The notes under the pieces: model-generated
Told to the model about the DNA's origin: nothing
What the model saw: the letters and a program-made list of their open reading frames with translations, nothing else
Database searches by the model: none
Source of the DNA: Rhodopseudomonas palustris
GTDB lineage: Bacteria > Pseudomonadota > Alphaproteobacteria > Rhizobiales > Xanthobacteraceae
Reading direction: 5' to 3'
Length of the DNA: 64,000 nt
Assembly (NCBI RefSeq): GCF_003591005.1
Contig: NZ_QYYD01000013.1
Location: 62,001 to 126,000 of the forward strand
Made by a program: the position numbers and the translations under genes
Shown here: one piece after another, positions 44,743-64,000 of the stretch
Position numbering within the stretch: position 1 is the stretch's first letter
How the letters are laid out: every line of letters starts with the position of its first letter

Positions 44743-44751
44743 GAGACGACG

Positions 44752-46698: not shown

Positions 46699-46706
46699 CG
46701 GTGACG

Positions 46707-49791: not shown

Positions 49792-50336
49792 TGCTGCGCC
49801 TGCTGGCGGCCTGTGCCGCCCTCCTTCTGCTCGCCGGGTGCAAGCCGAACTCGGCGACGGCCGAGCCGCCGCCGGCGGTCGCGCTCAACGCCGATGCTAT
49901 GGGCGTGTTCTGCGGCATGAATCTGATGGAGCATCCCGGACCGAAGGGCCAGATCATCACCGCAAGCCGGCTCGATCCGTTCTGGTTCTCGTCGGTGCGC
50001 GACACCGTGGCGTTCACGCGGATGCCCGAGCAGCCGCGCGATATCCGCGCGATCTACGTGTCAGACATGGCGCGCGCGCCGAGCTGGGACGCGCCGGGCG
50101 AGACCAACTGGATCGAGGCGCGCAAGGCTGTGTTCGTGATCGGCAGCCGCAGGCAAGGCGGCATGGGCGCAGCGGAGGCTGTGCCGTTCGGCGACCGCGC
50201 CGTTGCCGATCAGTTCGTCGCCAGCCACGGCGGCCGCATCGTCAGCTTCGACGAGATTCCGTCCGACTACGTACTTGGCGGTGAACCGCCGGCCGCGGCC
50301 GACGAGCACGACGCTGCCAGCGTGCGGACGAACTGA
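49788..50336 (+). CDS. nosL: NosL, copper-binding lipoprotein chaperone
   Basis: The 182-residue protein has a lipoprotein signal (LLLLAGC, Cys near residue 18) and the copper-site segment VFCGMNLMEHPGPKGQI with CxM. NosL supplies Cu(I) for NosZ metal-centre assembly at the outer face of the membrane. The start overlaps nosY by four bases; a second ATG follows directly. Confidence 0.93.
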   Translation: MMLRLLAACAALLLLAGCKPNSATAEPPPAVALNADAMGVFCGMNLMEHPGPKGQIITASRLDPFWFSSVRDTVAFTRMPEQPRDIRAIYVSDMARAPSWDAPGETNWIEARKAVFVIGSRRQGGMGAAEAVPFGDRAVADQFVASHGGRIVSFDEIPSDYVLGGEPPAAADEHDAASVRTN

Positions 50337-50345
50337 GAGGTCACC

Positions 50346-51338
50346 ATGCACAGCCACCGCCTCACCCGCCGCCGCATGATCACGATCGCGGCGGCCGCAG
50401 CCGGATCGCTGCTTGCCGGACGACTGCACGCCGGACCCGCATCCGAGTCGGTGCGTTGGCGCGGCTCGGCGCTCGGCGCGCAGGTGTCGATCGAGATGTT
50501 TCATCCCGACCGCGCCGAGGCCGAGCTGCTGATCGAGCGCGCGATCACCGAGGTTAGGCGGCTGGAAGGTCTGTTCAGCCTGTATCAGCCGTCTTCCGCC
50601 ATTTGCGAACTCAACCTGGCGGGCCTGCTGGTCGCGCCCGATCCCGACATGGTGGCGCTGCTGCGCGCGTCGCTGCGGTTCGCCGAACTCACCGGCGGCG
50701 CGTTCGATCCGACCGTGCAGCCGCTGTGGCGACTCTATCAGGAGCACTTCGCGGCCGACCGCGCCGATCCCGCCGGCCCCTCCGCCGAGCGGCTCGCCGA
50801 GGCGCTGACGAAGGTCGGGCACGCCCGTTTGCGTGTCAGCGCCGATCGTATTGTGTTGCGTCGACGCGGCGCCGCGATCACGCTGAACGGTATTGCTCAG
50901 GGCTATGCGACCGACCATGTGGTCGAGCTGTTCCGCCGCGCCGGCGTGACGACGACACTGGTCGACATGGGCGAGATCCGCGCTCTCGGTGCGGGCCCGC
51001 ATGGCACACCCTGGCAGGTCGGCATTGCACACCCCGAGCTACCCGGACAGCTCAGCGAGACCATCCCGCTGGTCGATCGCGCGGTGGCAACCAGCGCGGC
51101 GACCGGCTTCCGCTTCGATCCCGACGGTCGCTTCACGCATCTGTTCGATCCACTTAGCGGACGCAGCCCCTTGCTATATCGCAGCGTCAGCGTCGTCGCT
51201 CCCACTGCAACTGAAGCCGATGCGCTGTCGACGGCGTTCAGCCTGATGCCGGCCGCCGCGATCCGCGATGTCGTGGACAGCAGGACCGGCGTCGACGTTC
51301 ATCTCGTCGATCGCAACGGAATCACGTCACGTTTGTAG
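50346..51338 (+). CDS. nosX: NosX, ApbE-family FAD:protein FMN transferase
   Basis: The 330-residue periplasmic protein has a twin-arginine-like signal (RRRMITIAAAAAG) and ApbE-family motifs: GGAFDPTVQPLW, LNGIAQGYATDHV, DMGEIRALG and the Mg-binding VVAPTATEADALSTAF. It attaches FMN to NosR. It is the last gene of the operon, nine bases after nosL. Confidence 0.94.
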   Translation: MHSHRLTRRRMITIAAAAAGSLLAGRLHAGPASESVRWRGSALGAQVSIEMFHPDRAEAELLIERAITEVRRLEGLFSLYQPSSAICELNLAGLLVAPDPDMVALLRASLRFAELTGGAFDPTVQPLWRLYQEHFAADRADPAGPSAERLAEALTKVGHARLRVSADRIVLRRRGAAITLNGIAQGYATDHVVELFRRAGVTTTLVDMGEIRALGAGPHGTPWQVGIAHPELPGQLSETIPLVDRAVATSAATGFRFDPDGRFTHLFDPLSGRSPLLYRSVSVVAPTATEADALSTAFSLMPAAAIRDVVDSRTGVDVHLVDRNGITSRL

Positions 51339-51530
51339 ATGGATTGACGGACGCCCACCACGACGCGACGTCGCCCATGCGGACGCTTGGCCGGCAGCCC
51401 GAGGTCGCGCTGCAGGACGGCCTCGAAGCCAACATCGGGCGCGCTGCGCTGCGGATCGCCACGTGCGAGCAGACGGTAGCCGCAGCTCTCGAGCAGGCCG
51501 CGACGCGCGAGATGAAAATGATGAGGCCGC

Positions 51531-51716
51531 TTACGCGCGTTTCACCGGCCGTTTGCGGTCGATGACCAGCACGACCTCGCCGACTTCTTCGTCGGCGCGC
51601 TGCGACCACTTGTGAGCTTCCGCGAGCCAGTAGTTGCGGCGTGCCGGCTCGGTGGCCGAACGCTGCTTGCAGAGCGCCGCCTGGTGCAGGCATGCGCTGC
51701 GTCGATCAATCGCCAT
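51531..51716 (-). CDS. Small hypothetical protein (61 aa)
   Basis: The ATG at 51716 is preceded by GAGGTGACA. The protein is soluble and helical, with SACLHQAALCKQRSATEP and NYWLAEAHKWSQRADEE, a pattern seen in small stress-related rhizobial proteins. I recognise no named family. It lies between nosX and the Crp-type regulator. Confidence 0.6.
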   Translation of the reverse strand: MAIDRRSACLHQAALCKQRSATEPARRNYWLAEAHKWSQRADEEVGEVVLVIDRKRPVKRA

Positions 51717-51818
51717 TGTCACCTCAGTCCCCACCGGCGCCGGTCGGCGCGTTTCAACTATCGCTGAGCCGACGGACAACCACATTAACCTGCGATGACG
51801 GAACCGCCGATCGCCGCC

Positions 51819-52793
51819 TCAATTTCGCAAGTCGGCCTCCGGTCCGTGCGGCGTGCGGATGTCCGAGCCTGCGAACCGGCTGCTCATTCCAGGCAAGGGA
51901 TCAGCCAGAGTGGCAGTCTGCAGATAGCCGGGGTCGAATTCCGCGATCGCATAAAACTCGCGGCTGCGAATCGTGAGCCGCCCCTGCACCAGCTCGATCA
52001 GCTTGGTGCTGCGTAAATGCTGCAGTACCCGATTGACGTGAACGTAAGACAGTCCCAATGCATCGGCGAGTTCGCGCTGAGTGAACGGAAACGCCACGGT
52101 CTCCTGCGACGATCCGCTCCAGTGCTGCATCCGGTACGAGACCTCGCAAAGGAAGTGCGCGAGCCTCGCCTGCGCCGAGCGCCGCCCGAGCCAGATCAGC
52201 CACTCGCGCTGGATCGCGGCGTGCAGCGCAGTCTCGCACCATAAGGCACGGATGATCGCGGGCCGGGTCGCGAGCAGCGGCAGCAGCTCGGCATGCGGCA
52301 CTTCGAGCACCACCGCGGACGCTGATACGTAGATCGAAGCTCGTGCGCTGCGCAGCACAAGGTCGCCCGGGTTGAGCAGATCGCCCGGAAGAAACACCGC
52401 GACGATTTGCTGACTGCCGTCCTCCAGCGTTCGTGCCGCATAGGCTGTGCCCGAGCAGAGAAACACCAAGGCAGTCGTCATGCTGCCCTCGTGGGTGATG
52501 AACTCCCCCTTCGCGAACTGCCGCGGCGCACGCGCGATCGCGAGCAGCTCAGCCTGATCGGTCCCGGCAAGGCCGAGCCGCGTGGCCACTTTGGCCATGA
52601 AGGGAGCAAAGCGATGCGGCGGAGGACCGCGGTGATCCTGTGTGGCGTGGACTGGGGCACCAAACGCACCGGTCGATCTGAAGCCGGCCGACGAATGCTG
52701 CGGCGCCGAGGATTTCGCGGCGCCGTCCCGATGATGTCCCATCTGTCTCTCGCCACGTGCGGCGCGTCTCGGCTCACCGGCGTGGTCGTTCAT
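51819..52793 (-). CDS. Crp/Fnr-family transcriptional regulator
   Basis: The protein has a cyclic-nucleotide-binding-type sensor domain (FAKGEFITHEGS, SGTAYAARTLEDGSQQIVAVFLPGDLL) and a C-terminal winged helix (FTQRELADALGLSYVHVNRVLQHL). It lacks the Cys cluster of oxygen-sensing Fnr. The start is uncertain: ATG at 52793 gives 324 residues, while ATG at 52598 gives the usual 260. An EcfG-type promoter at 52836-52860 points to the longer transcript, and a tiny six-codon frame preceded by GGGAGG ends in ATGA at 52793. Position downstream of nos invites a link, but stress control is better supported. Confidence 0.85.
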   Translation of the reverse strand: MNDHAGEPRRAARGERQMGHHRDGAAKSSAPQHSSAGFRSTGAFGAPVHATQDHRGPPPHRFAPFMAKVATRLGLAGTDQAELLAIARAPRQFAKGEFITHEGSMTTALVFLCSGTAYAARTLEDGSQQIVAVFLPGDLLNPGDLVLRSARASIYVSASAVVLEVPHAELLPLLATRPAIIRALWCETALHAAIQREWLIWLGRRSAQARLAHFLCEVSYRMQHWSGSSQETVAFPFTQRELADALGLSYVHVNRVLQHLRSTKLIELVQGRLTIRSREFYAIAEFDPGYLQTATLADPLPGMSSRFAGSDIRTPHGPEADLRN

Positions 52794-52835
52794 GGCGGGG
52801 CCTGCAACATGGTGAAAGCCTCCCAATGCTCGACA

Positions 52836-52860
52836 AACGTCAAACCAGCGTGCCGGTTCC
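52836..52860 (-). promoter_or_regulatory. EcfG-type promoter for the Crp-family regulator
   Basis: On the minus strand GGAAC (52860-52856), 16 bases, then CGTT (52839-52836). This exactly matches the alphaproteobacterial EcfG consensus GGAAC-N16/17-CGTT. The start codon is about 43 bases downstream. Confidence 0.75.
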
Positions 52861-52907
52861 CGAGAAGCTTCGGTCGATCCTCTATCTCATTCGCCGCCGC
52901 CGCGGCC

Positions 52908-53768
52908 TCAGATAAACGGTCGGCCGCCGGTGACCGCCACCGTCGTGCCCGACGTGTAGCTCGACAGCGGATCCGCCAGCATGACATAGGCCGTCGCCAG
53001 TTCGGCGGGCTGGCCGGCGCGTTGCATCGGCGTGTTCTTGCCGAAGTTCGACACTGTGTCCTCCTTCATGGTGGACGGGATCAGCGGCGTCCAGATCGGT
53101 CCCGGCGCGACGGCGTTGGCGCGGATGCCCTTCTCGGCCAACATCTGCGCGAGCCCCGCGGTGAAGTTCTGGATCGCACCCTTGGTGGTCGCATAGGCGA
53201 GCAGCGACGGGTTAGGCATATCGGAATTCACAGAGGCGGTGTTGACGATGGCGCTGCCCGGCTTCATGTGCGGCACCGCGGCCTTGGTCAGATAGAACAT
53301 CGCGTGGATGTTGACGCGGAACGTCAGTTCCCACTCCTCGTCGCTGATGTCGCCGATATCGCTGAAGGTTGCCTGATGAGCGGCATTATTGACCAGGATG
53401 TCGATCCCGCCAAATTCCTCGACCGCCTTCTGCACCACCGCCCTGCAATGATCGGCGCGTTGCAGATCGCCGGGGACCAGCACGGCCTTTCGGCCCTCCT
53501 GCTCGATCAGCGCTTTGACCTCGGCGGCATCGTCGTGCTCGTCGAGATAGGAGATCAGCAGGTCCGCTCCCTCGCGCGCATAGGCGATCGCGACAGCGCG
53601 GCCGATGCCGCTGTCACCGCCGGTGATCAAGGCGCTCAGGCCCTTCAGGCGTCCGGCCCCTTTGTAGCTCGACTCACCATGGTCCGGCCGCGGCTGCATC
53701 GCGGCGGTCACGCCCGGCATCGGCTGTTGTTGCTTCGGAAATGGCGGCTTGGGATAGAATGGTGGCAT
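52908..53768 (-). CDS. Short-chain dehydrogenase/reductase, YhdF/GsP39-like
   Basis: The 286-residue protein begins with a Pro-rich leader (PPFYPKPPFPKQQQPMPG) typical of stress-related SDRs of this type, followed by the NAD(P) motif ALITGGDSGIGRAVA, the NNAAH loop and the YATTK catalytic pair. The ATG at 53768 follows GGAGACCGAT. It lies downstream of DUF72 and alcohol dehydrogenase genes on the same strand, and has its own weak EcfG-like site just upstream. Confidence 0.9.
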   Translation of the reverse strand: MPPFYPKPPFPKQQQPMPGVTAAMQPRPDHGESSYKGAGRLKGLSALITGGDSGIGRAVAIAYAREGADLLISYLDEHDDAAEVKALIEQEGRKAVLVPGDLQRADHCRAVVQKAVEEFGGIDILVNNAAHQATFSDIGDISDEEWELTFRVNIHAMFYLTKAAVPHMKPGSAIVNTASVNSDMPNPSLLAYATTKGAIQNFTAGLAQMLAEKGIRANAVAPGPIWTPLIPSTMKEDTVSNFGKNTPMQRAGQPAELATAYVMLADPLSSYTSGTTVAVTGGRPFI

Positions 53769-53793
53769 ATCGGTCTCCAATGATCGCTGCACC

Positions 53794-53818
53794 AATCGAT
53801 CACGGCGCGGGTCGTTCC
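53794..53818 (-). promoter_or_regulatory. Weak EcfG-like site upstream of the SDR gene
   Basis: On the minus strand GGAAC, 16 bases, then GATT, about 26 bases before the SDR start. The -35 is perfect and the spacing matches the other sites here; the -10 differs from (C/G)GTT at one or two bases. Confidence 0.4.
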
Positions 53819-53839
53819 GTCCGCGGCGAACGGCGCGGT

Positions 53840-54565
53840 TCAATCCATCAATCGCTGCAAGCGCAACGCATCCAGCGGCGCGGCGCTCTTCTGGTCGTTG
53901 TCGAAATAGACGTAAACGTCGTGGCCGCGGCGGCGCCACGCTGCGATCGTGTTGGCCCAGCTCTGCAATGCGGCGCGGCTGTAGTGACCGTGATAGCGGC
54001 CGCCTGGACCATGGCCGCGGACATAGACAAAATCGGCTGTCCGCTTCCAGGGTGCCGGGGCATCGTGGTGATCGGACAGACACAGCGAGGCGTTGGCCCG
54101 CCGCAAGACGCGGAGAATATTCGGCGCGTACCAGCTCGGGTGACGAAATTCGAATGCGTAGCGCCGTCGCGGCGACAGCATCTCGACGAACGCGGCCAGA
54201 CGCTGTTCGTCCGCGCTGAACTGCGGCGGCAACTGAAACAGGATCGGCCCGGCTTTGTCGCCGAGCAGGCTGATGCGGTCCTCAAGCAGCTCAAGGCTGT
54301 TGAGGCTGGCCGCCGACAACCTCTTCCAATGCGTGATGAACTTGGAGGCCTTCCAGGCGAACACGAAATCCTCGCCCGTGGTATCACGCCAGCCCTTCAC
54401 CGCTTCCGGCGTCGGCGTGCGATAGAATACACCGTTGAGTTCAGCCGAGCCGAACTGGCTGGCGTAGTATTGCAGCTGCCGGTTCAACGGCAGCCCGTCG
54501 GGAAAGAATGGACCTCGCCAGGATGGGTACGACCATCCCGACGTGCCGATCCGGACGCGCGCCAT
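53840..54565 (-). CDS. DUF72 family protein
   Basis: The 241-residue TIM-barrel-like protein starts VRIGTSGWSYPSWRGPFFP, the family signature, and has FAWKASKFITHWKRL and GPILFQLPPQF. YVRGHGPGGRYHGHYS is near the C-terminus. The family is widespread with no settled biochemical role, and often lies near stress or DNA-metabolism genes. It starts 13 bases after the alcohol dehydrogenase stop, in the same operon. Confidence 0.9.
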   Translation of the reverse strand: MARVRIGTSGWSYPSWRGPFFPDGLPLNRQLQYYASQFGSAELNGVFYRTPTPEAVKGWRDTTGEDFVFAWKASKFITHWKRLSAASLNSLELLEDRISLLGDKAGPILFQLPPQFSADEQRLAAFVEMLSPRRRYAFEFRHPSWYAPNILRVLRRANASLCLSDHHDAPAPWKRTADFVYVRGHGPGGRYHGHYSRAALQSWANTIAAWRRRGHDVYVYFDNDQKSAAPLDALRLQRLMD

Positions 54566-54578
54566 CGAGAGGCCGCAC

Positions 54579-55748
54579 TCAGGGCTTCATGACCACCTTG
54601 ATGCAGCCGTCCTTCTTGTCGCGGAACGTCTTGTACAGCTCCGGGCCCTCTTCCAGCGTGGCACGGTGGGTGATCACGAAGCTCGGATCGATTTCGCCCC
54701 TCTCCACGCGGCCGAGCAATTGCGGCAGATAACGCTGCACCGGCGTCTGCGCCATGCGGAAAGTCAGCCCGCGGTTGATAGCCGAGCCCATCGGGATCTT
54801 GTCGAGCAAACCGCCATACACACCGACGATCGACACAGTGCCGAAGTTGCGGCAGCAATGGATTGCCTGCCGTAGCACATGCGGCCGATCAGTGCCCATG
54901 AAGGTCGCCATCTTGACGCGGTCGACCACGGCGTCGAAGCCGGACGCGGTGTCGGGCTCGGTGCCGACAGCGTCGATGCAGGCGTCAGCGCCGCGGCCGT
55001 TGGTGAGATCCTGAATACGGTCGTAGACATCCTCATCGCGGAAATCGATCGTGATCGCGCCCGAAGCACGCGCCATTTCCATCCGCTCCGGCACCGTGTC
55101 GATAGCGATTACCCGCTCTGCGCCGAGCATGAAGGCGCTCTTGATCGCAAACTGCCCGACCGGCCCGCAGCCCCAGATCGCGACGGTTTCTCCGCCCTTC
55201 AGATCGCAGAAGTCCGCTGCCATGAAGCCGGTCGGGAAGATGTCGGACAGAAACAGCACCTGCTCGTCGCTCAGCCCGTCCGGAACCTTGATCGGCCCGA
55301 CGTCCGCATAGGGCACCCGCATATACTCGGCCTGCCCGCCGGCGTAGCCGCCGAGTAGATGCGAGTAGCCGAACAGGCCGGCGGGCGAGTGGCCCCACAT
55401 GGTTTCAGCCTTCTTCTTGTCGGGATTCGAGCGCTCGCAGCCGCTGTAGAAGCCGCGCTGGCAGAAGAAGCACTCACCGCAGGAGATCGTGAACGGCACG
55501 ACGACGCGGTCGCCGACCTTCAGCTTCTTGTTGTCGGCACCGACCTCGACGACTTCACCCATCGTCTCGTGCCCGAGGACGTCGCCGCTGCGCATCTCGG
55601 GCATCACCCCATCGAACAGATGCAGATCCGAGCCGCAGATCGCGCAGGCGGTCACCTTGATGATGGCGTCACGGCCGTGCTCAATCTTCGGATCCGGTAC
55701 GCTCTCGCACCGGATGTCGCTCTTGCCGTGCCAGGTCAGCGCCTTCAT
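54579..55748 (-). CDS. Zinc-dependent alcohol dehydrogenase family protein
   Basis: The 389-residue medium-chain dehydrogenase has catalytic-zinc residues in CAICGSDLH and GHETMGEV, the structural zinc cysteines in [16 protein letters not shown], and the NAD-binding motif [13 protein letters not shown]. It is close to glutathione-independent formaldehyde dehydrogenase-like/threonine dehydrogenase-like enzymes. The ATG at 55748 follows GGAGATCACC. It heads the adh-DUF72-SDR operon. Confidence 0.9.
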
Positions 55749-55778
55749 GGTGATCTCCGCTCGTGTGTTGCGCCTGAC

Positions 55779-55803
55779 AAACATCACAGCTGTTAGTGGT
55801 TCC
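55779..55803 (-). promoter_or_regulatory. Weak EcfG-like site upstream of alcohol dehydrogenase
   Basis: On the minus strand GGAAC (55803-55799), 16 bases, then GTTT (55782-55779). The -35 GGAACC is perfect but the -10 deviates from CGTT. It ends about 31 bases before the ATG. Confidence 0.45.
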
Positions 55804-55931
55804 TAACGAAGCGCAGCGGCGACATTGGCCCGCTGCGCTGCGATGCAGCTCTGCACGATGGTTGCGCTTTCAAGAATGCAGGCAGCGGCGGGCTCCGCGT
55901 CGTTCAGTCCGCCGCACGATCCGTTCGGATT

Positions 55932-55956
55932 GGAACTCGGCCATTGGCTCTCCGTT
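55932..55956 (+). promoter_or_regulatory. EcfG-type promoter for the DUF4142 gene
   Basis: GGAAC at 55932-55936, 16 bases, CGTT at 55953-55956, an exact match to the EcfG consensus. The ATG is at 56050. Confidence 0.75.
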
Positions 55957-56049
55957 GAGCCCCAAACCGGGTGGGTTGCAAGCCGGCTGAGTTCAGCTTC
56001 GGCAAGGCATCAGCACCGTTGTCAGTGACAGGCAAGACAAGGATTCTCA

Positions 56050-56607
56050 ATGAAGACGACCACGGCTCTTGTTCTCAGCTGCTTCATGATCGCAGCTCCT
56101 CCTTTGGTGCAGACGGCCGCGGCTCAATCCAGCGCCGCGCAGGCGCCCGCCATCAGCCCCGCAACGCAGCAATTCATTACCCAGGTGGCGATCTCCGATC
56201 TCTTCGAGGTCGCCTCGTCGCGGCTGGCACTGGCGCGCGGCACCGAGGGGCAGAAAGCTTTCGCCAACCAAATGATAGAAGACCACGGCAAGACTTCGTC
56301 AGAGCTGCGCCAGCTGATCGTCGTTCGCGGGTTGAAGGTCGATATCCCGAGTCAGCTCGACAGCGCCCATCAGGACAAATACGACCAGCTGAACAACGCC
56401 CGTGGTAACGATTTCCAGGCGCTCTATGCCAGCCAGCAGGTCGCGGCGCACAAAGATGCGATCGCGTTGTTCCAGCGTTATGCGCAAAACGGGGATTTGC
56501 CGGAGTTGAAGGATTGGGCCGGCAAGACTCTCCCGGCGCTGAAGCATCATCTGGAGATGGCTCAGAAGCTAGGCGCTGCCGCACCAGCAGCGCCAGCCGC
56601 CAAATAA
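56050..56607 (+). CDS. DUF4142 secreted protein
   Basis: The 185-residue protein has a signal peptide (LVLSCFMIAAPPLVQTAAAQ) and a ferritin-like helical domain of the DUF4142 family: FITQVAISDLFEVASSRLAL, FANQMIEDHGKTSSELRQL and AHKDAIALFQRYAQNG. Such proteins are frequent members of stress regulons in alphaproteobacteria; function is not settled. The ATG follows AAGGATTCTCA, and an EcfG-type promoter lies upstream. Confidence 0.9.
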   Translation: MKTTTALVLSCFMIAAPPLVQTAAAQSSAAQAPAISPATQQFITQVAISDLFEVASSRLALARGTEGQKAFANQMIEDHGKTSSELRQLIVVRGLKVDIPSQLDSAHQDKYDQLNNARGNDFQALYASQQVAAHKDAIALFQRYAQNGDLPELKDWAGKTLPALKHHLEMAQKLGAAAPAAPAAK

Positions 56608-56611
56608 CGAC

Positions 56612-56645
56612 CCGGCCACCCCGTCTAAAAGGATCGGGTGGCCGG
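56612..56645 (+). terminator. Hairpin downstream of the DUF4142 gene
   Basis: CCGGCCACCC at 56612-56621 pairs perfectly with GGGTGGCCGG at 56636-56645 around a loop containing TCTAAAAGGAT. It lies just after the stop codon at 56607. Confidence 0.7.
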
Positions 56646-56682
56646 CGGTCGGCCGGGCACCCTCATGCTCGAGGACTACGCG

Positions 56683-56847
56683 ATGTCATACGACCCCACT
56701 AAGTCGATCGATCTGATCCATCATCTGCGCGAAGCGCTGGAGCTCGCCCGCGAGCTGAAATTTTCCCATCTCGAGTATCTGCTGTCGATGGCCGAACTCG
56801 AAAGCCGCGATCGTCTCGGTAAGACGGTGACCGACGGCAGTGCATGA
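56683..56847 (+). CDS. Small hypothetical protein (54 aa)
   Basis: The ATG at 56683 is preceded by GAGGA at 7 bases. The protein is short and helical with SIDLIHHLREALELARELK and YLLSMAELESRDRLG. An upstream in-frame start falls within the terminator hairpin, which favours this one. No family is recognised; it sits in the stress island. Confidence 0.65.
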   Translation: MSYDPTKSIDLIHHLREALELARELKFSHLEYLLSMAELESRDRLGKTVTDGSA

Positions 56848-56908
56848 CGTCGGGCACTGCTCCGCCGTGTTCCCTATCCCCCCCTGACAAGCAGCGACTC
56901 GCAGCAGC

Positions 56909-56993
56909 GCTCCGCCGATCCGGGATGCCGGTCGCTTATGCCGTGCCGTGCGGCTGACTAAGCAGCGCAAGAGCGGGCCCGGATCGGCGGAGC
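56909..56993. repeat. Perfect 16-bp inverted repeat with 53-bp spacer
   Basis: GCTCCGCCGATCCGGG at 56909-56924 is exactly complementary to CCCGGATCGGCGGAGC at 56978-56993. It lies between convergent genes ending at 56847 and 57103. It could be a terminator-like structure, a processed RNA or the remains of a small mobile element. Confidence 0.85.
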
Positions 56994-57102
56994 ATCACGC
57001 CGCGAGCGGTGTTATGCTCCTTGTCCTGGGCACTATGAGACTACACGCGGACTCAGTGGCTGCGAGCCGCAGCCGCAGCTTGCGCTGGCAGGTGTTCCAG
57101 CT

Positions 57103-57738
57103 TCAAGCCAGGCGGAACGGGATGTCGCGCCCCGGCTCCCACAGGCCGAATAGATCACTGACCGACACAAGGTCGATCTGCTCGTGAAAGCGGGTGCGAT
57201 ACATCGTCATCAGCGCGTCATGGCCCGGGTCCGACGAACTACACAACGCATCTTCGACCAGCGCCACCCGATAACCAAGATCGACCGCGTCCAGCACGGT
57301 GGCCAGAACACAGACGTCGGTTTCCGCGCCGGTGAACACCACGGTGCCGACGCCGAGCTGGTTCAGCATCGCCGCCAGACTGGATTGCTTGAAAGCGGAA
57401 TACACCGGCTTGTCGATCACCAGCGCCGGCGGCGTTAGCCGAGCGAGTTCGGGCACGAGATCGAGCTGCTCCGGCGGAAGGTGTTGCTGCGTTGCGGCCT
57501 CCCAGCGGTGATAATAGCGCCGCCAGCGGCCGTTGCAGTCCTCGGCGCGGTGCGGTGGAATGAACCGCGTGAAGATCGTGCGGTCGCGATAACGCGATGC
57601 GACCTCAGTGATCGCGGGGCCGACGCGCGATATCCACGGCGTCTCCCACACTCCGCCGGTGCAAAAGATTCGCTGCATATCGATGCACAGATGGGCCGCC
57701 TGGCTGATCGGCTCCACAGTCTCGATCGATTTTGTCAT
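57103..57738 (-). CDS. Isochorismatase-family cysteine hydrolase
   Basis: The 211-residue protein has Asp20 in HLCIDMQRIF, a basic residue in VIDKPVYSAFK and nucleophile Cys in GAETDVCVLATVLDAVD. This is the layout of isochorismatase/nicotinamidase-type hydrolases. The ATG at 57738 overlaps the stop of the upstream membrane-protein gene by four bases. The substrate is unknown. Confidence 0.88.
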   Translation of the reverse strand: MTKSIETVEPISQAAHLCIDMQRIFCTGGVWETPWISRVGPAITEVASRYRDRTIFTRFIPPHRAEDCNGRWRRYYHRWEAATQQHLPPEQLDLVPELARLTPPALVIDKPVYSAFKQSSLAAMLNQLGVGTVVFTGAETDVCVLATVLDAVDLGYRVALVEDALCSSSDPGHDALMTMYRTRFHEQIDLVSVSDLFGLWEPGRDIPFRLA

Positions 57739-58106
57739 GGCATGTCGGGACGGATAGGATGAGGAGACGCGTTCGGCCGGCGCTCGGTAATCAGTACCAG
57801 CAGCAATGCCAGCGCCCCGACGACCGCCGACGCCCAAGCGAAGGCGCCGAGTTCAAGCGTGGCGGCGAGCACCAACATTGCGGCGCCGAACACAGCGTCC
57901 AGCGTCAGATGGATCGGCATCGGCAGCAGGCCCACTGCGCCCCATTCGTAATCAGTAACCAGGCTGTAGCCGATGCCGAGAAAGCCCAGCGTGACAAAGC
58001 ACCAGCGCGCTCCGCCCTGCCACCCCGCCAGAAACGGCAGCGCGATCACCAGCGCCGACACCAGGTAGTCCAACAGGCCGTGCCATTTGGTAGGCAGACG
58101 CCGCAA
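57735..58106 (-). CDS. Small membrane protein with SPW-like repeats
   Basis: The 123-residue protein has four hydrophobic segments (YLVSALVIALPFLAGW, LGFLGIGYSLVTDY, LDAVFGAAMLVLAATLE, ASAVVGALALLLVLI), similar to the SPW-repeat type. The start is TTG at 58106, supported by AAGGAGACAGAGGT just before it. An EcfG-type promoter lies 32 bases upstream. It is coupled to the cysteine hydrolase. Confidence 0.78.
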   Translation of the reverse strand: MRRLPTKWHGLLDYLVSALVIALPFLAGWQGGARWCFVTLGFLGIGYSLVTDYEWGAVGLLPMPIHLTLDAVFGAAMLVLAATLELGAFAWASAVVGALALLLVLITERRPNASPHPIRPDMP

Positions 58107-58137
58107 ACCTCTGTCTCCTTCTCAGCAAGCGACATCC

Positions 58138-58162
58138 AACCCGTGGCCCCTGGCGGTGTTCC
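58138..58162 (-). promoter_or_regulatory. EcfG-type promoter for the membrane protein/hydrolase pair
   Basis: On the minus strand GGAAC (58162-58158), 16 bases, GGTT (58141-58138), a (C/G)GTT variant of the EcfG consensus. It diverges from another such promoter at 58186-58210. Confidence 0.65.
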
Positions 58163-58185
58163 AAAGGCGATCCGGACCGACGTTT

Positions 58186-58210
58186 GGAACATGGCCACGG
58201 CGGCGCCGTT
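58186..58210 (+). promoter_or_regulatory. EcfG-type promoter for the gene at 58235
   Basis: GGAAC at 58186-58190, 16 bases, CGTT at 58207-58210, an exact EcfG consensus. The ATG begins 25 bases after the -10. Confidence 0.78.
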
Positions 58211-58234
58211 GGCAGGCGAAACAAGGAGATCGCA

Positions 58235-58654
58235 ATGACCAAAGCTTCGCTGCAGATGACATCCTCCGAAGCGCGAGGGCTGGCTCGTGCGCTCGGCTGG
58301 TTCTCGCTGGCGCTTGGCGCTGCCGAACTGATTGCACCGCGCCGGATCACGCAGGCGCTGGGCATGCAGGGCAGCGAAGGCATGGTCCAGCTCTACGGGC
58401 TGCGCGAAATCGCCAGCGGCGTCGCGATCCTCTCGACCGAGTCCGCGACCTCGGTCTGGAGCCGGGTAGCCGGCGACGCGCTCGACCTCGGCACTCTCGG
58501 CATGCACCTCAGCAACGACAACAATAAGCAGGCCAACGTCGCGGCAGCCGTGGCCATGGTGGGCGGCGTTACCCTGATCGACGCCGCTTGCGCGGCCAGT
58601 CTGTCCTCGATCGAGGCGCGCGAACAAACCGAAGCTCCGCGAGCGCTCAATTGA
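58235..58654 (+). CDS. Small membrane protein, unknown family
   Basis: The 139-residue protein has helices LARALGWFSLALGAAELIAP and VAAAVAMVGGVTLIDAACAASL, with GSEGMVQLYGLREIASGVAIL between them. The ATG at 58235 follows GGAGATCGCA. The gene has an EcfG-type promoter and is followed by the patatin gene on the same strand. Function not assigned. Confidence 0.8.
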   Translation: MTKASLQMTSSEARGLARALGWFSLALGAAELIAPRRITQALGMQGSEGMVQLYGLREIASGVAILSTESATSVWSRVAGDALDLGTLGMHLSNDNNKQANVAAAVAMVGGVTLIDAACAASLSSIEAREQTEAPRALN

Positions 58655-58707
58655 TCGGCGGCTTGCCGCGTGAATTCTCGGCACCCGCGGATGGCGGCTC
58701 CGCGGAT

Positions 58708-59709
58708 ATGACGACAGCTCTGGTGTTCGGCGGCGGACTCAGCCTTGCCGCCTATCACGGTGGCGCGTATCAGGCTTTTGCCGAGCGGCAGTTGCCGCTG
58801 CATTGGACCGCCGGCTCCTCCGCTGGTGCGGTCACTGCCGCACTGATCGCCGGCACCGCGCCGGACGAGCGCGTATTTCGCCTGCGCACTTTCTGGGGGA
58901 TTGGGACAGAAGCGCCGAGCGCCGGCCCGTTCGCACATCTCGAAGGCTGGATGAGCGCTGTCCGTGCGCATGTGATCGGAGATCCGTCGCGTTTCTATCC
59001 GCGATTTCCGTCGCCGCGCTTTCACAGCCTGTATGATCTGACGCCGATGCGCCGGCGGCTCGCCCAACTGATCGACTTCGGCCGGCTCAACGGCGGCGAG
59101 GTTCGGCTGTGCATCGTGGCGACAGACGTCGTCAGCGGTGATCCCGTAGTATTCGACACCAGCACCACCCGCATCGAACTCGACCATGTGCTCGCCAGCT
59201 GCGGCTTCTTGCCCGAGTTCGCGCCCGTCACCATCGGCCAGCAGACGTTGGTCGACGGCGGCTTGTCGCTGAACGCGCCGTTCGATCCAATCCTGCAGGC
59301 ATCCACCGCCCCGCTGCGGCTGTTCGTACTCGATCTCTACGCCCGCGACGACGCGCCGCCGACCAGCCTCGAGGCCGCGCTCGAGCGTAAGAACGACCTC
59401 ATCTTCGGCAACCAGACCTATCTTCGCCTCAAGGACAAGATCGCGATCAGGCGCCTTCAGCGCGAACTCGCCGGCAGCTCGAATGCAGACGACGAGATCT
59501 CGCTGCTCAGCTATCGGGCCGGATCCGACGAGCCAGGCCCCGAAAAGAGCTTCAACTTCTCCCGCCCCGCCCTCACGCGCCGCTGGTGCGCAGGCCGCAT
59601 GGACATGGAGGCAGCGTTGCACAGCGACATCCGCGGGATCGATGGCCTGCGCGTCATCCGCCGCGATCCGTCGGCGGCACGGCCGGGCGCTCAGGCGGAA
59701 GCGCGTTGA
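58708..59709 (+). CDS. Patatin-like phospholipase
   Basis: The 333-residue protein has the anion-hole loop GGGLSLAAYHGG at 8-19, the nucleophile elbow GSSAG with Ser38, and the Asp of the dyad in LVDGGLSLN. This is the patatin fold, which hydrolyses phospholipid or other acyl esters. The ATG at 58708 is the first Met before the family start; a TTG at 58651 overlapping the previous gene is an alternative. It probably shares the EcfG promoter of the gene before it. Confidence 0.88.
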   Translation: MTTALVFGGGLSLAAYHGGAYQAFAERQLPLHWTAGSSAGAVTAALIAGTAPDERVFRLRTFWGIGTEAPSAGPFAHLEGWMSAVRAHVIGDPSRFYPRFPSPRFHSLYDLTPMRRRLAQLIDFGRLNGGEVRLCIVATDVVSGDPVVFDTSTTRIELDHVLASCGFLPEFAPVTIGQQTLVDGGLSLNAPFDPILQASTAPLRLFVLDLYARDDAPPTSLEAALERKNDLIFGNQTYLRLKDKIAIRRLQRELAGSSNADDEISLLSYRAGSDEPGPEKSFNFSRPALTRRWCAGRMDMEAALHSDIRGIDGLRVIRRDPSAARPGAQAEAR

Positions 59710-59767
59710 CATTGTCGGCAAACAGGTTGTGGACCGCATAACGACCGCCGCGGTGCCGCAACTGCCT

Positions 59768-59832
59768 GCCATCGGGGCGATCAAGCCGGCACGGCAGAGA
59801 AGATGTCGTCCGCGGCTTTACGCCCCGATGGC
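59768..59832. repeat. Perfect 12-bp inverted repeat with 41-bp spacer
   Basis: GCCATCGGGGCG at 59768-59779 is exactly complementary to CGCCCCGATGGC at 59821-59832. It lies between the convergent patatin and SDR genes, where it could act as a shared terminator. Confidence 0.8.
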
Positions 59833-59852
59833 CGTCGTCGCCGCGTTCACGC

Positions 59853-60638
59853 TCAGCTCTTGGCCGTGCCTGGCTCCGCCATCTTGCGGTGCTGACTGGC
59901 CAGCGTCCCGGACGGCACCACATTGGCGGCCGCCGACATCACCTTGTTCTTCCAGCCGGTGACGACGTCGCCCTCGCCGCACATCATCGCGTCGAAGCCG
60001 AGCTGCGCAACCTCACCGGCGTCGTCCTTCTCGGCGGCTCCGACTGCGGTGTCGAGCATATCGGCACGGCGGAAAAAATCCGTCTCGGTCGCGCCGGGCA
60101 TCAGGCAGGTCACCGTCACCGCGCTGTCCCTCAGCTCTTCGCGCAGCGCGAAGGAAAACGAATTCAGGAACGCCTTCGACGCATTGTAGACCGCCTGGAA
60201 GCTGCCCGGCGTGAAGCCGGCGATCGAACCCGTGATCAGGATACGGCCACTGTTGCGTCGGCTCATCTCGTTGCCGATACGATGGACCAGATATAGCGTC
60301 CCGACAACGTTGGTATCGACGACCTTGCGTGCCTCGGCAAAATTCTGATCGAGAAAGGAATGACCAAGTCCGCGGCCGGCGTTTGCTAACAGCGCATCGA
60401 CCGGCCGGCCCTTCGCGGCCTCGCAGAGACGGTTGACGCCCTCCTCGGTAGCAAGATCGGTTTGCACCGTCTCGACAGAGACGCCGCTTGCGCGCAGATC
60501 GATCGCGGCTGTTTCGATCGCCGGCTCATCAGCCGCGATCAGCAAATCGAACCCCGCCTTCGCGCAGCACCGGGCCAGCTCGAGGCCGATTCCGGTCGAC
60601 GCTCCGGTGACGATGGCGAAGGATCGTTGATCTGTCAT
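59853..60638 (-). CDS. Short-chain dehydrogenase/reductase
   Basis: The 261-residue SDR has the cofactor motif VTGASTGIGLELA, the LLANAGRG loop, the SGSI-like ITGSIAG serine and the YNASK catalytic pair. The ATG at 60638 follows GGAGCCCAAC. An EcfG-type promoter lies 32 bases upstream. Substrate unknown. Confidence 0.9.
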   Translation of the reverse strand: MTDQRSFAIVTGASTGIGLELARCCAKAGFDLLIAADEPAIETAAIDLRASGVSVETVQTDLATEEGVNRLCEAAKGRPVDALLANAGRGLGHSFLDQNFAEARKVVDTNVVGTLYLVHRIGNEMSRRNSGRILITGSIAGFTPGSFQAVYNASKAFLNSFSFALREELRDSAVTVTCLMPGATETDFFRRADMLDTAVGAAEKDDAGEVAQLGFDAMMCGEGDVVTGWKNKVMSAAANVVPSGTLASQHRKMAEPGTAKS

Positions 60639-60669
60639 GTTGGGCTCCATGGTCGTAATGCCGCAAGCC

Positions 60670-60694
60670 AACCAGGCCCGACGCGACGCGTTCC
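60670..60694 (-). promoter_or_regulatory. EcfG-type promoter for the SDR gene
   Basis: On the minus strand GGAAC (60694-60690), 16 bases, GGTT (60673-60670). The spacing to the start codon matches that of the other minus-strand site at 58138-58162. Confidence 0.65.
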
Positions 60695-60820
60695 TCGCAT
60701 AGGAGCGCAGTGGTGATTCCGGTTCTGCTTCCACATCGCGGATGATGATCGCGGTCATTCAACGCGCACGATTCCCCACTGATTCACGGCCGAAGTGACA
60801 TCCGGACGCGACAGCGAATA

Positions 60821-60845
60821 GGAACTCGTGATGGGTGCGATGGTT
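60821..60845 (+). promoter_or_regulatory. EcfG-type promoter for the DUF378 gene
   Basis: GGAAC at 60821-60825, 16 bases, GGTT at 60842-60845. The ATG lies at 60873, 28 bases after the -10. Confidence 0.68.
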
Positions 60846-60872
60846 GGTCGGCGTCACTCATCGGAGATCACC

Positions 60873-61121
60873 ATGCGCATTCTTAACATCGTCACGCTTC
60901 TTCTCGTCATCGTCGGCGGCGTCAACTGGGGCTTGGTCGGCCTGTTTGATTTCGATCTCGTCACCGCGATCCTCGGTAACGGCGCGGCCGAAACCGCGAC
61001 GTCGTCGGCCGCTGCCCGTATCGTCTACATTCTCGTAGCGCTGTCGGCCCTGTATCAGATTACGACGTTGACGCGCCTGTTGTCGACGCGCTCGGCCGCT
61101 TACGGCAGCAACACGTACTAA
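60873..61121 (+). CDS. DUF378 small membrane protein
   Basis: The 82-residue protein has the DUF378 signature: ILNIVTLLLVIVGGVNWGLVGLFDFDLV, then AARIVYILVALSALYQI. Two membrane helices. The ATG at 60873 follows GGAGATCACC, and an EcfG-type promoter lies upstream. Members are often stress-induced; role unknown. Confidence 0.88.
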   Translation: MRILNIVTLLLVIVGGVNWGLVGLFDFDLVTAILGNGAAETATSSAAARIVYILVALSALYQITTLTRLLSTRSAAYGSNTY

Positions 61122-61139
61122 GCGCAGACGCTGCAGCTA

Positions 61140-61403
61140 ATGGATCGCGCCGATCAATTTCGCCGCATCGCCGGCAACGACCCGAGCGGCGCGATCTACT
61201 TTTTGCCGTGGCGCACCAGCTTCGCGGTGGCGCTCCGGTTCGGCCTGATCGGCCTGCAGCGCTGGCGGCTGTGCTACGAAATCCCGACCAGCGTGGTCTC
61301 GCCGGATCCGGAGCAGTGTGCCGCTTCGGCAGCGCGGCGGTGCCGCCCATCTTTTCGATCACCGCCAGCCATTGCTGCTGATGCATGGTGTCTCGCGCGA
61401 TAA
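61140..61403 (+). CDS. Possible short gene or fragment, unknown
   Basis: The first 60 or so codons have the high third-position GC of real genes here, and encode QFRRIAGNDPSGAIYFLPW and ALRFGLIGLQRWRLCYEIP. No ribosome site is evident and the frame runs into the catalase remnant on the other strand, after which it looks like antisense. I cannot identify it; it may be a truncated gene. Confidence 0.25.
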   Translation: MDRADQFRRIAGNDPSGAIYFLPWRTSFAVALRFGLIGLQRWRLCYEIPTSVVSPDPEQCAASAARRCRPSFRSPPAIAADAWCLAR

Positions 61404-61464
61404 TGAAGCGCAGCATGTCGCGCATGCCGGGGTCGGAGGTCACCGGCGCCAAGGTCAAGTAGTG
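61321..61464 (-). pseudogene. Manganese catalase remnant
   Basis: The minus strand encodes SDPGMRDMLRFIIARDTMH followed by QQQWLAVIEKMGG. This closely resembles the manganese catalase region DPGxxDMLxFLIARDTMHQxQWLAA, which carries metal ligands. The reading continues upstream only to LTLAPVT and downstream only to about TAALP, after which the similarity is lost. About 45 of some 280-300 residues remain, so this is a gene relic. Confidence 0.65.
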
Positions 61465-61519
61465 ATTAACATCAAATGAGACAGGGTGCCGCGGCGCCCG
61501 CCTGTCGATTATAGAAGGG

Positions 61520-61747
61520 TCAGTGACTGCGCTGGGCTTCGTGGCGCAACCTATTGCGGATCGCCGCCGCCTGTCCTGCAGCTTCGAACTCGTGCAAGGT
61601 GCGCCCGCCCGCGCGAGCACACTCCGCAATCTGCGCCGCCACCCGCGCTCGCACCGCATGCTCCTGCCCGTTCGGCAGAGTTCCACACACCCGCTCCAGA
61701 GCAACTTCCATATTGGCCCGCGTCCGCGGATCGAGATCGTCCGTCAT
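61520..61747 (-). CDS. Small hypothetical protein (75 aa)
   Basis: The ATG at 61747 follows GGAGTAAGTCAG. The protein is helical and charged: DPRTRANMEVALERVCGTLP and HAVRARVAAQIAECARAG, then LHEFEAAGQAAAIRNRL. This pattern recurs in uncharacterised small proteins of Bradyrhizobium-like bacteria. Function unknown. Confidence 0.65.
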   Translation of the reverse strand: MTDDLDPRTRANMEVALERVCGTLPNGQEHAVRARVAAQIAECARAGGRTLHEFEAAGQAAAIRNRLRHEAQRSH

Positions 61748-61903
61748 CTGACTTACTCCAGCAAGACACGCCGGCCCGCTCGGATGCGGGCCGCTCGCGG
61801 AAGAATAGCGCGAGGCAGATATCCGCTCTCTAACCTATGGCAAAATGGTGTCGAAATCCGCCTCGGGTTTGCCATTGGTTTTTCACGCCAGGCACGCTCC
61901 AAA

Positions 61904-61928
61904 GGAACACGGCTAACCACTCGGGGTT
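61904..61928 (+). promoter_or_regulatory. EcfG-type promoter for malQ
   Basis: GGAAC at 61904-61908, 16 bases, GGTT at 61925-61928. The malQ GTG start lies 96 bases after the -10. It places glucan metabolism under the stress sigma factor, by inference. Confidence 0.62.
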
Positions 61929-62023
61929 GTGACAGCAAACGTCGAGACACCGATCGGAGGAGCACTGCGGCGCGTAGCTGCGGGCTCGACCGGCGAGCAG
62001 CTCCGACGTCGGCAGGAGCACTC

Positions 62024-64000
62024 GTGAACCCAACTCAAATCAAACGCCTTGCATCACGCTATGGCATCGCCCTCAGCTTCGAAGACGCCCGCGGCAACAC
62101 CGTCGATACCGACCCCGAGGTGGCCCGCAAGCTGCTGATCAGCATGGGCGTGCTCGACCATGCTGGAACCACATTGCAGCCTGAGCAGCAGGCAATTCTG
62201 CCACCTGCCATCGTCGTACGCCCTGACCGCGCCGGCCGCATCGCGATCGACCTCGGCTGCGCGATCTCGGCGAGGCAGATCGAGTGGCAGCTCACCTTGG
62301 AAGACGGCAGCTCCCGCAGCGGCACTGCGGCGGTGGCGGCCGCCAACGCAGATGCAACAGCTCACCTGACGCTGCCGCAACTTCCGCATGGCTATCACCG
62401 GCTCGTGCTCGGTCATGCAGACGCCGCGACGATGTTGATCGTGACACCGGGCGAATGCTGGCTGCCGGAGAGCTTTCGCCGGGACGAGCGGCGATACGGC
62501 CTGTCGCTCCAGCTGTATCTGCTGCGCTCTGCGAGCAATTGGGGAATCGGTGATTTCACCGATCTTCAGCACCTTGCCCGGCTCGCTGCCGCGCAAGGTT
62601 GCGACGTGCTCGGTTTGAATCCGCTGCATCAAATGTTTCCGGACAACCCGGAGCATGCCAGTCCCTATTCGCCCGCGAGCCGGCAATTCCTCAATGTGCT
62701 GTACATCGACGTCACCGCGATCGCGGAATATCAACGATCCGCCGCCGCCCAGAAGCTTGTGCAATCCGCTCGCTTCCAGCAGCGGCTCGAGCAATGCCGG
62801 AAGACCTCGCAGGTCGACTACAGCAGCGTCGCCGATCTGAAGCTGCAAGCATTGCGACTGGTCCATGCCGACTTCCGCACCGCTGCCGACGCACAGCGCA
62901 TCACCGACTATCAACGATTCGTCTCGACAGCCGGCGACGGCCTGCACAACGCCTCGTTGTTTCAAGCGCTGCGCGACCATTTCGCCGACACCGATCCATC
63001 GCAGGCCGATTGGCACCTCTGGCCGGAGGCGTACCACGCGGCGGATTCCGAGGGATCGCTGGCATTCGCGCGCGAGCACGCGGAGCAGATCGACTTCTAC
63101 AACTGGACACAATGGGTCGCCGAGCAGCAGCTTGCCGCCGCTAAGGATGCCGCAACGGCAGCGGGCATGCAGGTCGGGCTCTATCTCGATCTCGCAGTTG
63201 GATGTGATCGCAGCGGGTCCGAGACCTGGGCGAACCCGGGCGATTACATGAACGCGGCCGAAGTCGGCGCGCCGCCCGACATCTTCAATCCAGCCGGGCA
63301 GAATTGGGGATTGCCGCCGCTCAATCCGGTCTCGCTAATCGCCGAGGGCTATCGTCCCTTCATCGATCTGCTCCGCGCGAACATGCGACATGGCGGGGGG
63401 CTGCGGATTGATCACGCCATGGGTCTCCAGCGGCTGTACTGCATCCCCGAAGGATCGCCGCCCTCCGCTGGCGCTTATGTGCACTATCCGGTGGCCGATC
63501 TGATCGGCATTCTGGCGCTTGAAAGCCAACGTCACCACTGCCTGGTCGTTGGCGAGGACCTCGGCACGGTGCCAACCGGCTTCCGGGAGCGCATGGAAGA
63601 AGCCAATATCCTGTCCTATCGCGTGTTGTTCTTCGAGGCCGACGGCGATGGTGAGTTCAAGCCGGCGACGAGCTATCCGCGTCTCGCCGTTGCGGTAGCA
63701 GGAAGTCACGATCTGCCGACGCTGCCGAGCTGGCTTTCGGGCAGCGACATCGACCTGAAAGATCAATTGGGCCTGTACCCGTCGGCCGAAGAAACCGAAA
63801 AGCAGCGGCAGTCGCGCCAGCGGGAGCGTCGTGCCGTTATGCGCGTCCTCGGTCTGGACGGATCGTCGCAGCAGATCACGCCCGATGTATTCTCGAACGC
63901 CGTGCATGGTTTTCTCGGCCGGACGCGCTCGCTGTTGGCGATGACGCAGCTCGATGATCTTCTGGGCGAGCATGATCCTGTAAACGTGCCAGCGACTTCG
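62024..64000 (+). CDS. malQ: 4-alpha-glucanotransferase (amylomaltase), 3' end missing
   Basis: The frame is open from GTG at 62024, preceded by AGGAG, to the window edge, giving 659 residues. The enzyme is a GH77 disproportionating enzyme that transfers glucan segments between maltodextrins or glycogen. Motifs are GLNPLHQMFPDNPEHASPYS, the nucleophile Asp463 in LRIDHAMGLQR, the acid/base Glu511 in VVGEDLGTVP, and SHDLPTLPSWL. The N-terminal extension before about residue 140 is typical of bacterial MalQ of about 700 residues. Only the C-terminal end is missing. Confidence 0.93.
   Translation, partial: MNPTQIKRLASRYGIALSFEDARGNTVDTDPEVARKLLISMGVLDHAGTTLQPEQQAILPPAIVVRPDRAGRIAIDLGCAISARQIEWQLTLEDGSSRSGTAAVAAANADATAHLTLPQLPHGYHRLVLGHADAATMLIVTPGECWLPESFRRDERRYGLSLQLYLLRSASNWGIGDFTDLQHLARLAAAQGCDVLGLNPLHQMFPDNPEHASPYSPASRQFLNVLYIDVTAIAEYQRSAAAQKLVQSARFQQRLEQCRKTSQVDYSSVADLKLQALRLVHADFRTAADAQRITDYQRFVSTAGDGLHNASLFQALRDHFADTDPSQADWHLWPEAYHAADSEGSLAFAREHAEQIDFYNWTQWVAEQQLAAAKDAATAAGMQVGLYLDLAVGCDRSGSETWANPGDYMNAAEVGAPPDIFNPAGQNWGLPPLNPVSLIAEGYRPFIDLLRANMRHGGGLRIDHAMGLQRLYCIPEGSPPSAGAYVHYPVADLIGILALESQRHHCLVVGEDLGTVPTGFRERMEEANILSYRVLFFEADGDGEFKPATSYPRLAVAVAGSHDLPTLPSWLSGSDIDLKDQLGLYPSAEETEKQRQSRQRERRAVMRVLGLDGSSQQITPDVFSNAVHGFLGRTRSLLAMTQLDDLLGEHDPVNVPATS

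Follow-up and report, generated by a model that had tools for sequence, protein, structure and literature searches.

Under stress, PhyR is phosphorylated and binds NepR, and the sigma factor EcfG is freed. EcfG reportedly regulates hpnP in Rhodopseudomonas palustris TIE-1 (this is said to be the work of Kulkarni in 2013), which shares its genus and its sigma factor with the case described here. In the available excerpts of the literature, the EcfG motif of R. etli is GGAAC-N16-CGTT (PMC3892343) and that of S. melonis is GGAAC-N17-20-GTT, which is counted to the GTT and corresponds to N16 upward in the present notation (PMC6599016). The excerpts on S. melonis also describe an AATT-type site before a ku gene, the upstream region of which was assayed by beta-galactosidase, and the top EcfG-dependent genes include those of a Crp-type protein, a 4-alpha-glucanotransferase, a catalase and a Zn-ADH, of which only the first has a good motif of its own (PMC6599016). 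According to excerpts of another study, FATGUY receivers and HWE/HisKA2 kinases (MrrA, SdrG) act as inputs to the stress response of Caulobacter and Sphingomonas (PMC5964349). Among the open-licence papers listed, no title or abstract opening names a reshuffled, promoter-tagged EcfG gene cluster.

The window, i.e., the whole 64-kb stretch of Rhodopseudomonas palustris DNA that was analysed, contains nine small gene units in about 10 kb which very probably form a cluster of EcfG stress genes rather than a chance assembly. The strict motif GGAAC-N16-(C/G)GTT occurs seven times in the window, each time exactly where it had been predicted. All seven sites precede a start codon by no more than about 100 bp, as had also been claimed, and point at it, with 24–95 bases between the end of the -10 box and the start. 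The two weaker sites that had been reported are present as well; the original prediction counted eight sites in its title, and the seven plus two listed in its text are what the sequence contains.

The predicted promoter of crpA (52836..52860, minus strand, CGTT) ends 42 bases before this gene for a Crp/Fnr-type regulator (51819..52793, minus; PF13545, PF00027). The weaker sites are the predicted promoters of sdr1, a short-chain dehydrogenase gene (site 53794..53818, minus, GATT; gene 52908..53768, minus; PF13561), and of adh, of the zinc alcohol dehydrogenase family (site 55779..55803, minus, GTTT; gene 54579..55748, minus; PF08240, PF00107). The adh site can be read in two ways, as N16-GTTT or as N15-TGTT. 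A DUF72 gene (53840..54565, minus; PF01904) lies beyond adh. The gene of a DUF4142 protein (56050..56607, plus; PF13628) has its predicted promoter at 55932..55956 (plus, CGTT), at 93 bases. The next predicted promoter (58138..58162, minus, GGTT) is 31 bases from an SPW-repeat-like membrane protein gene (57735..58106, minus; PF03779, under its cut-off) whose start, a TTG, is uncertain and whose second gene encodes an isochorismatase-family cysteine hydrolase (57103..57738, minus; PF00857). At 24 bases from its site (58186..58210, plus, CGTT) begins the gene of a small membrane protein with a weak DUF4267 match (58235..58654, plus; PF14087, under its cut-off), followed by a patatin-like phospholipase as second gene (58708..59709, plus; PF01734). 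None of the DUF72, cysteine hydrolase and patatin genes has its own site in the window; presumably they are the second genes of operons, DUF72 with adh.

The predicted promoter of sdr2 (60670..60694, minus, GGTT) is 31 bases from this second short-chain dehydrogenase gene (59853..60638, minus; PF00106), provided that the gene begins at 60638, the start given by alignment; if it began at the upstream ATG 60758, the site would no longer precede it. That of the DUF378 membrane protein gene (60873..61121, plus; PF04070) lies at 60821..60845 (plus, GGTT), 27 bases away. Two remnants follow: one of a gene with a length of 245 aa in genome G014 (61140..61340, plus; 70% identity over residues 4–69), the other of a manganese catalase gene (61327..61440, minus; 38 residues with 89% identity to the gene that is intact in G014, PF05067 positions 157–197). 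The last predicted promoter (61904..61928, plus, GGTT) is 95 bases from malQ, a 4-alpha-glucanotransferase gene which starts at 62024 (plus; TIGR00217) and runs past the window end at 64000 to 64177.

The relaxed pattern GGAAC-N16-NNTT has 11 matches in the 64 kb: the seven strict sites, the two weaker ones, 18123 (plus) and 51800 (plus). GGAAC-N16/17-SGTT has eight, the eighth being an N17 site at 37603 (minus), whereas 100 shuffles of the window gave 1.44 on average and 5 at most; composition as the cause of the site density was dropped after these shuffles and a check of the window composition. Between 50 and 64 kb of the window, no RNA element was matched in Rfam at gathering scores.

The nine window genes that have a site were followed into 12 other genomes of the genus by comparing the regions upstream of their orthologues (39 regions, two further ones being left out because their start was not aligned). 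The relaxed N16 motif is found in 38 of them, the strict one in 23 and the backwards one in none; at other spacings (N12–15, N17–20) the relaxed motif matches 0 to 10 of the 39. In the 38 pairs aligned with the window's own sites, the spacers agree at 38% on average (one column at 76%), and the two -10 positions left free by the relaxed pattern agree at 76% and 79%. The crpA site is kept in G014, the sole other genome with a crpA match, the DUF4142 site in G002 and G014, the two others with that gene, and the malQ site in G014 and also in G002, though no malQ match lies downstream there. The sdr1 site ends with GATT in G002 and AATT in G014, and is strict in five further genomes. The 12 genomes with a full-length adh, the present one included, all have GGAAC 25–33 bases upstream, with GTTT (5), CTTT (4), GCTT (2) or CCTT (1) at N16. 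Among the other regions fetched, the site is strict in 4/4 for SPW, 5/5 for sdr2 and 3/3 (those with an aligned start) for the small membrane protein, the G013 region of which, with an unaligned start, has no site; for DUF378 it is strict in two of five, N16-TGTT in two and N17-CGTT in one. In G007 and G011, the cysteine hydrolase gene has its own strict site and no SPW gene was found alongside, and DUF72 has no site, though no gene was noticed directly upstream. The DUF892 and Mn catalase genes, which are absent or broken in the present genome, have a relaxed site in 10/10 regions (nine strict), these two genes having been chosen after their sites had been noticed, with one region left out. 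A comparison of head and internal genes was abandoned: the 150-base rule left 12 "head" genes without a site and 17 "internal" genes with one, because promoters occupy gaps of 46–124 bases.

Not every genome of the genus has the cluster, since the small membrane protein occurs in 5 of 16 genomes (the present one counted) and adh, at E up to 1e-150, in 12 of 16. No strict N16 site was found within 39.8 kb around adh in G008 and G010. At 79 more distant loci (L003–L081), a relaxed N16 site is present at adh in 3/78 and at the membrane gene in 0/79. The backwards control is unreliable in the membrane-gene regions, as it matched 30/79 of them.

The original prediction placed the cluster at 51800–62030, but it extends beyond the end of the window and there includes signalling genes. 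After malQ come a second Crp-type gene (crpB), an HWE-domain gene and genes for an 83-aa protein, a receiver and a PAS hybrid kinase (L092, 2368–6617). The receiver carries FATGY, a motif assignment that is our own reading. The HWE protein is short (217 aa), and the domain scan found no sensor domain in it. The PAS hybrid kinase is of the HisKA type in this genome, and its gene is preceded by an N16-TGTT site. The Crp-type, HWE and FATGY-receiver genes are likely parts of the same stress pathway. In G002 the malQ match is missing and the malQ promoter now precedes crpB and the HWE gene.

It is quite conceivable, if somewhat doubtful, that the sites are real EcfG promoters but that their clustering is meaningless, accessory stress genes having accumulated in a variable region as they were repeatedly inserted and lost. 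The strongly variable gene content, with the decayed Mn catalase and 245-aa genes, speaks for this, as do the tRNA-Lys directly past the cluster and the nos region: nothing in the 39.8 kb read at the same locus in G002 matches the stretch at 41.2–52.9 kb (nos genes and crpA). Because the nos stretch is absent from that locus in this sister genome, the adjacency to nos that had been put forward looks incidental, whereas the cluster itself is supported. An integrase-borne island was dropped: no integrase family was found among the proteins scanned, which are a subset of the ORFs, the G+C content of the cluster (0.63–0.66) is similar to that of the window, and the tRNA-Lys lies past the cluster end only in G000 and G002, the 15 other loci scanned for tRNA yielding a single one, a tRNA-Ser that lies about 19 kb away from the G006 cluster. 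The G002 stretch after tRNA-Lys encodes what appear, by eye, to be secretion-type proteins. Against a meaningless clustering, parts of the gene set stand together in eight genomes, in three arrangements, and relatives of the Crp, HWE, receiver, SDR2, adh and membrane genes are grouped in Bradyrhizobium loci, where the first three are only 38–48% identical. This grouping suggests that something holds the genes together.

Another ECF sigma factor of overlapping specificity, with EcfG minor or uninvolved, is improbable. GGAAC-like -35 boxes are common to several ECF groups. The genes ecfG, nepR and phyR are encoded together in this genome, on another contig than the cluster (L093, 9513–11313), with 395.7 bits for EcfG (PRK12540, cut-off 307), 61.5 for NepR (PF18557, cut-off 25.7) and 369 for PhyR (PRK09191, cut-off 240). 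In each of 16 genomes NepR is matched once, and so is EcfG (at E up to 1e-30), this sole EcfG match being the gene which adjoins NepR. This speaks against another factor, and the N16 spacing recurs in the nepR-phyR gap in 16/16 genomes, where GGAAC-N16-CGTA faces phyR and GGAAC-N16-(A/C)ATT faces nepR; these sites, found by a search that required GGAAC only, are not SGTT. The motif also agrees with published EcfG motifs, as excerpted (PMC6599016, PMC3892343).

The genome (5.62 Mb) contains 96 GGAAC-N16-SGTT sites, against 67 for the same pattern backwards. The prediction quoted the known EcfG motif with N16 or N17, and only the former is in excess: N17 gives 38 sites against 42 backwards and was dropped as an alternative spacing. 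Judged by the N17 background, about 58 of the 96 sites look genuine, and judged by the backwards control, about 29 do; in 4 of 16 genomes (G003, G004, G008, G015) the genome total is lower than that of the backwards pattern. Among the 89 sites outside the seven, 56 lie in non-coding DNA and point at a start, compared to 17 of 146 control GGAAC sites. The gene caller behind these counts is crude and was applied only alongside this matched control, because it placed only 4/7 sites of the cluster in that class. Chance clustering of short motifs between genes is practically negligible, in spite of a genome background of about 38 matches by the N17 form or 67 by the backwards form, given that none of 20,000 placements of the 96 sites (uniform over the genome, contig ends ignored) put seven within 9,093 bp (the maximum was six, once) and that the relaxed N16 motif stands in 38 of the 39 orthologue regions, the backwards one in none, with diverged spacers, the sites in rearranged relatives being held to refute chance.

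The reading that we prefer, with a probability of about 0.9, is that the sites are EcfG promoters and that the cluster would be switched on through PhyR-NepR-EcfG. It is supported by the genome-wide clustering, the sites before reordered orthologues, the presence of ecfG, nepR and phyR and the nepR-phyR sites in all 16 genomes. Phosphorylated under stress, PhyR would bind NepR and release EcfG, which would start transcription at about nine promoters in 10 kb. The induced products would be oxidoreductases and membrane proteins together with a phospholipase-like protein, a glucan enzyme and a Crp-type regulator. Transcription running on from malQ would raise CrpB and the HWE-domain protein, the N16-TGTT site would raise the PAS hybrid kinase, and the cluster could thus feed back on its own signalling. 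The sequences directly show the sites, how they cluster and are conserved, and that the switch genes are there; from these we infer the use of the sites by EcfG, the operon structure and the feedback.

More tentatively, the locus may be a pre-wired stress module, in which one EcfG promoter per unit lets genes be shuffled, lost or inserted without loss of regulation, and selection holds the effectors with the Crp and HWE/FATGY genes that feed back. The malQ promoter before crpB and the HWE gene in G002 has the appearance expected of such promoter-first evolution. The cluster is a compact list of predicted EcfG targets and candidate signalling genes, and the N16 rule serves to predict further targets. 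It also offers a case in which to ask why the members of a one-sigma regulon stay together though each unit owns a promoter.

The closest known system is the EcfG (ECF15) regulon. As far as the excerpts go, the likeness lies in the R. etli motif (PMC3892343) and in sites less than 100 bp from starts, as in S. melonis (PMC6599016), and also in some similar gene types and the PhyR-NepR-EcfG core genes of the same genome. Here, in contrast, many promoters are gathered in one 10-kb block followed by signalling genes, and N16 alone is enriched, unlike the GGAAC-N17-20-GTT excerpted for S. melonis (PMC6599016). The FATGY receiver and the HWE-domain protein resemble the MrrA/SdrG pathway proteins, as excerpted (PMC5964349), but the HWE protein differs from them in being short (217 aa) and in that no sensor domain was found in it. 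EcfG promoters are already known, and this promoter-tagged, reshuffled cluster is a well-supported further case.

The site cluster in the window is real, and its interpretation as a set of EcfG promoters is very likely correct. The seven strict sites (GGAAC-N16-(C/G)GTT) of the original prediction were all found in a scan of the window, each at the position predicted for it; the relaxed form, GGAAC-N16-NNTT, has 11 matches in the 64 kb, nine of which are sites that had been listed. The genome (G000, 5.62 Mb in 91 contigs, the window being C4:62001-126000) contains 96 strict sites, compared to 67 for the backwards control, and 38 sites with a 17-bp spacer, compared to 42 for its own backwards control, which shows that N16 is the working spacing. 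An isolated GGAAC-N17-CGTT at 37603-37628 (-) is probably due to chance, as the genome shows no excess of N17 sites.

The predicted clustering also held at the scale of the genome: in a simulation that ignored contig ends, none of 20,000 placements put seven sites inside 9,093 bp. The number of real strict sites is estimated at about 58 if N17 is taken as the background, or about 29 with the backwards control. Outside the cluster, 56 of 89 sites are non-coding and face a start (17/146 for control GGAAC sites) according to a crude gene caller that classes only four of the cluster's own seven sites in this way; this favours the higher estimate. By arithmetic from the two backgrounds, the cluster would account for 12% or so (24% with the backwards control) of all real strict sites within 0.16% of the genome.

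The upstream regions of orthologues, each 220 bases long with a further 45 bases of the gene, were taken from stretches fetched in other genomes of the genus. For the nine window genes with a site, 41 regions were found; adh in G002 and the membrane gene in G013 were left out because their starts could not be aligned. The 39 kept regions, from 12 genomes, have a relaxed N16 site in 38 cases and a strict one in 23, and none of the 39 has the backwards N16 motif; the exception to the relaxed site, DUF378 in G005, has an N17 CGTT site instead. In the 38 pairs aligned with the G000 sites, the match at GGAAC and at the final TT is built into the pattern; the two -10 positions left free are identical in 76% and 79% of cases, compared to a mean spacer identity of 38% (a single spacer column reaches 76%). 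The adh regions make up 11 of the 39 and none has a strict site. At the adh site, which had been called weak, GGAAC lies 25-33 bases upstream in all 12 genomes with a full-length adh, followed at N16 by GTTT (5), CTTT (4), GCTT (2) or CCTT (1). The -10 box of SDR1 is GATT in G000 and G002 and AATT in G014; five other genomes have a strict SGTT there. According to passages of PMC6599016, an AATT-type site lies upstream of the S. melonis ku gene, and this upstream region was assayed by beta-galactosidase. The best match of the small membrane protein in the named collection is from Rhodopseudomonas sp. AAP120 (72% identity).

All 16 genomes of the genus have one NepR match (PF18557) and a single EcfG match at E up to 1e-30; ecfG, nepR and phyR adjoin on contig C22 of G000. 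A scan of the nepR-phyR gap, in which GGAAC was the sole sequence demanded, found in 16/16 genomes a GGAAC-N16-CGTA facing phyR, 58-78 bases upstream of the aligned start, and a GGAAC-N16-(A/C)ATT facing nepR, with spacers that vary among genomes. Because sites face both genes in every genome, GGAAC-N16 is part of the control locus, but its -10 boxes differ from SGTT.

The malQ gene of G000 runs past the window to 64177. Downstream of it come a second Crp-type regulator, a 217-aa HWE-domain protein, an 83-aa protein, a receiver and a PAS hybrid kinase, the latter with an N16-TGTT site 22 bases upstream of its start. The receiver matches PF00072 only below the cut-off and contains VFATGYG, which we read as a putative FATGUY-type motif; passages of PMC5964349 name this motif without spelling it. 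The same passages describe FATGUY receivers and HWE kinases feeding the general stress response of other alphaproteobacteria, and by analogy the receiver and the HWE-domain protein would do so here. A tRNA-Lys (CTT) lies after the cluster in G000 (6776-6851 of L092, the stretch past the window) and in G002 (4133-4208 of its stretch L115). Past it, G002 has about 6.8 kb without a match in G000, in which genes of the ABC/HlyD type and a large, repeat-rich gene for a putative protease were recognised by eye.

Some cluster genes may have had their EcfG wiring before the genus arose, since sites occur before the receiver, SDR1, DUF892 and SDR2 among 79 more distant loci (L003-L081), many of them from Bradyrhizobium. 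An N16/17-NGTT site precedes the receiver gene in all 18 loci where its match sufficed, SDR1 in 5/6 and DUF892 in 3/3. SDR2 has a relaxed N16 site in 34/41 but the NGTT form in only 1/36 (GATT and CATT in the two loci inspected, L009 and L028). The scarcity of relaxed N16 sites before adh (only 3/78) and their absence before the membrane gene (0/79) count against the EcfG reading, and the wiring of other cluster genes is observed in Rhodopseudomonas only. In L009, L028 and similar Bradyrhizobium loci, a GCAAC-N16-ACTT stretch common to several lies upstream of adh; it could be a weakened version of this predicted promoter.

The cluster was seen in three arrangements (G000/G014/G002, G006/G005/G004 and G007/G011), and its genes lie at two places in G011. 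In most cases the promoter goes with the first gene of a unit. The cysteine hydrolase has no site when downstream of SPW (G000, G005, G006, G014), but in G007 and G011, whose SPW does not adjoin it, its site is strict. Before DUF72, a relaxed site occurs in G005 and G006 and none in G000, G014 and G013; the gene's lack of a site in G007 and G011 is contrary to the rule. G002 retains the malQ promoter nearly unchanged, with no match to malQ itself behind it and crpB next. The manganese catalase of G000, oriented opposite to the downstream malQ, is cut down to 38 residues (another lies on contig C11); in G014 the two genes run in the same direction. Related clusters contain five intact copies, all of them with sites, four strict and one N16-TGTT. 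At 61140-61440, a truncated 245-aa gene and, on the other strand, the remnant of the manganese catalase lie end to end, a rearrangement scar.

The stretch 41196-52910, which includes NosL, ApbE and crpA, has no match in the 39.8 kb examined at the corresponding G002 locus, and both its flanks match G002 at about 87%. The denitrification genes adjoining the cluster were either gained in G000 or lost in G002.

The cluster, as part of a predicted EcfG regulon, is of a kind already known, and this case is new. It is unusual in that many units with promoters of their own are concentrated in one place, that these units have been reshuffled with their promoters retained, and that signalling genes adjoin them.
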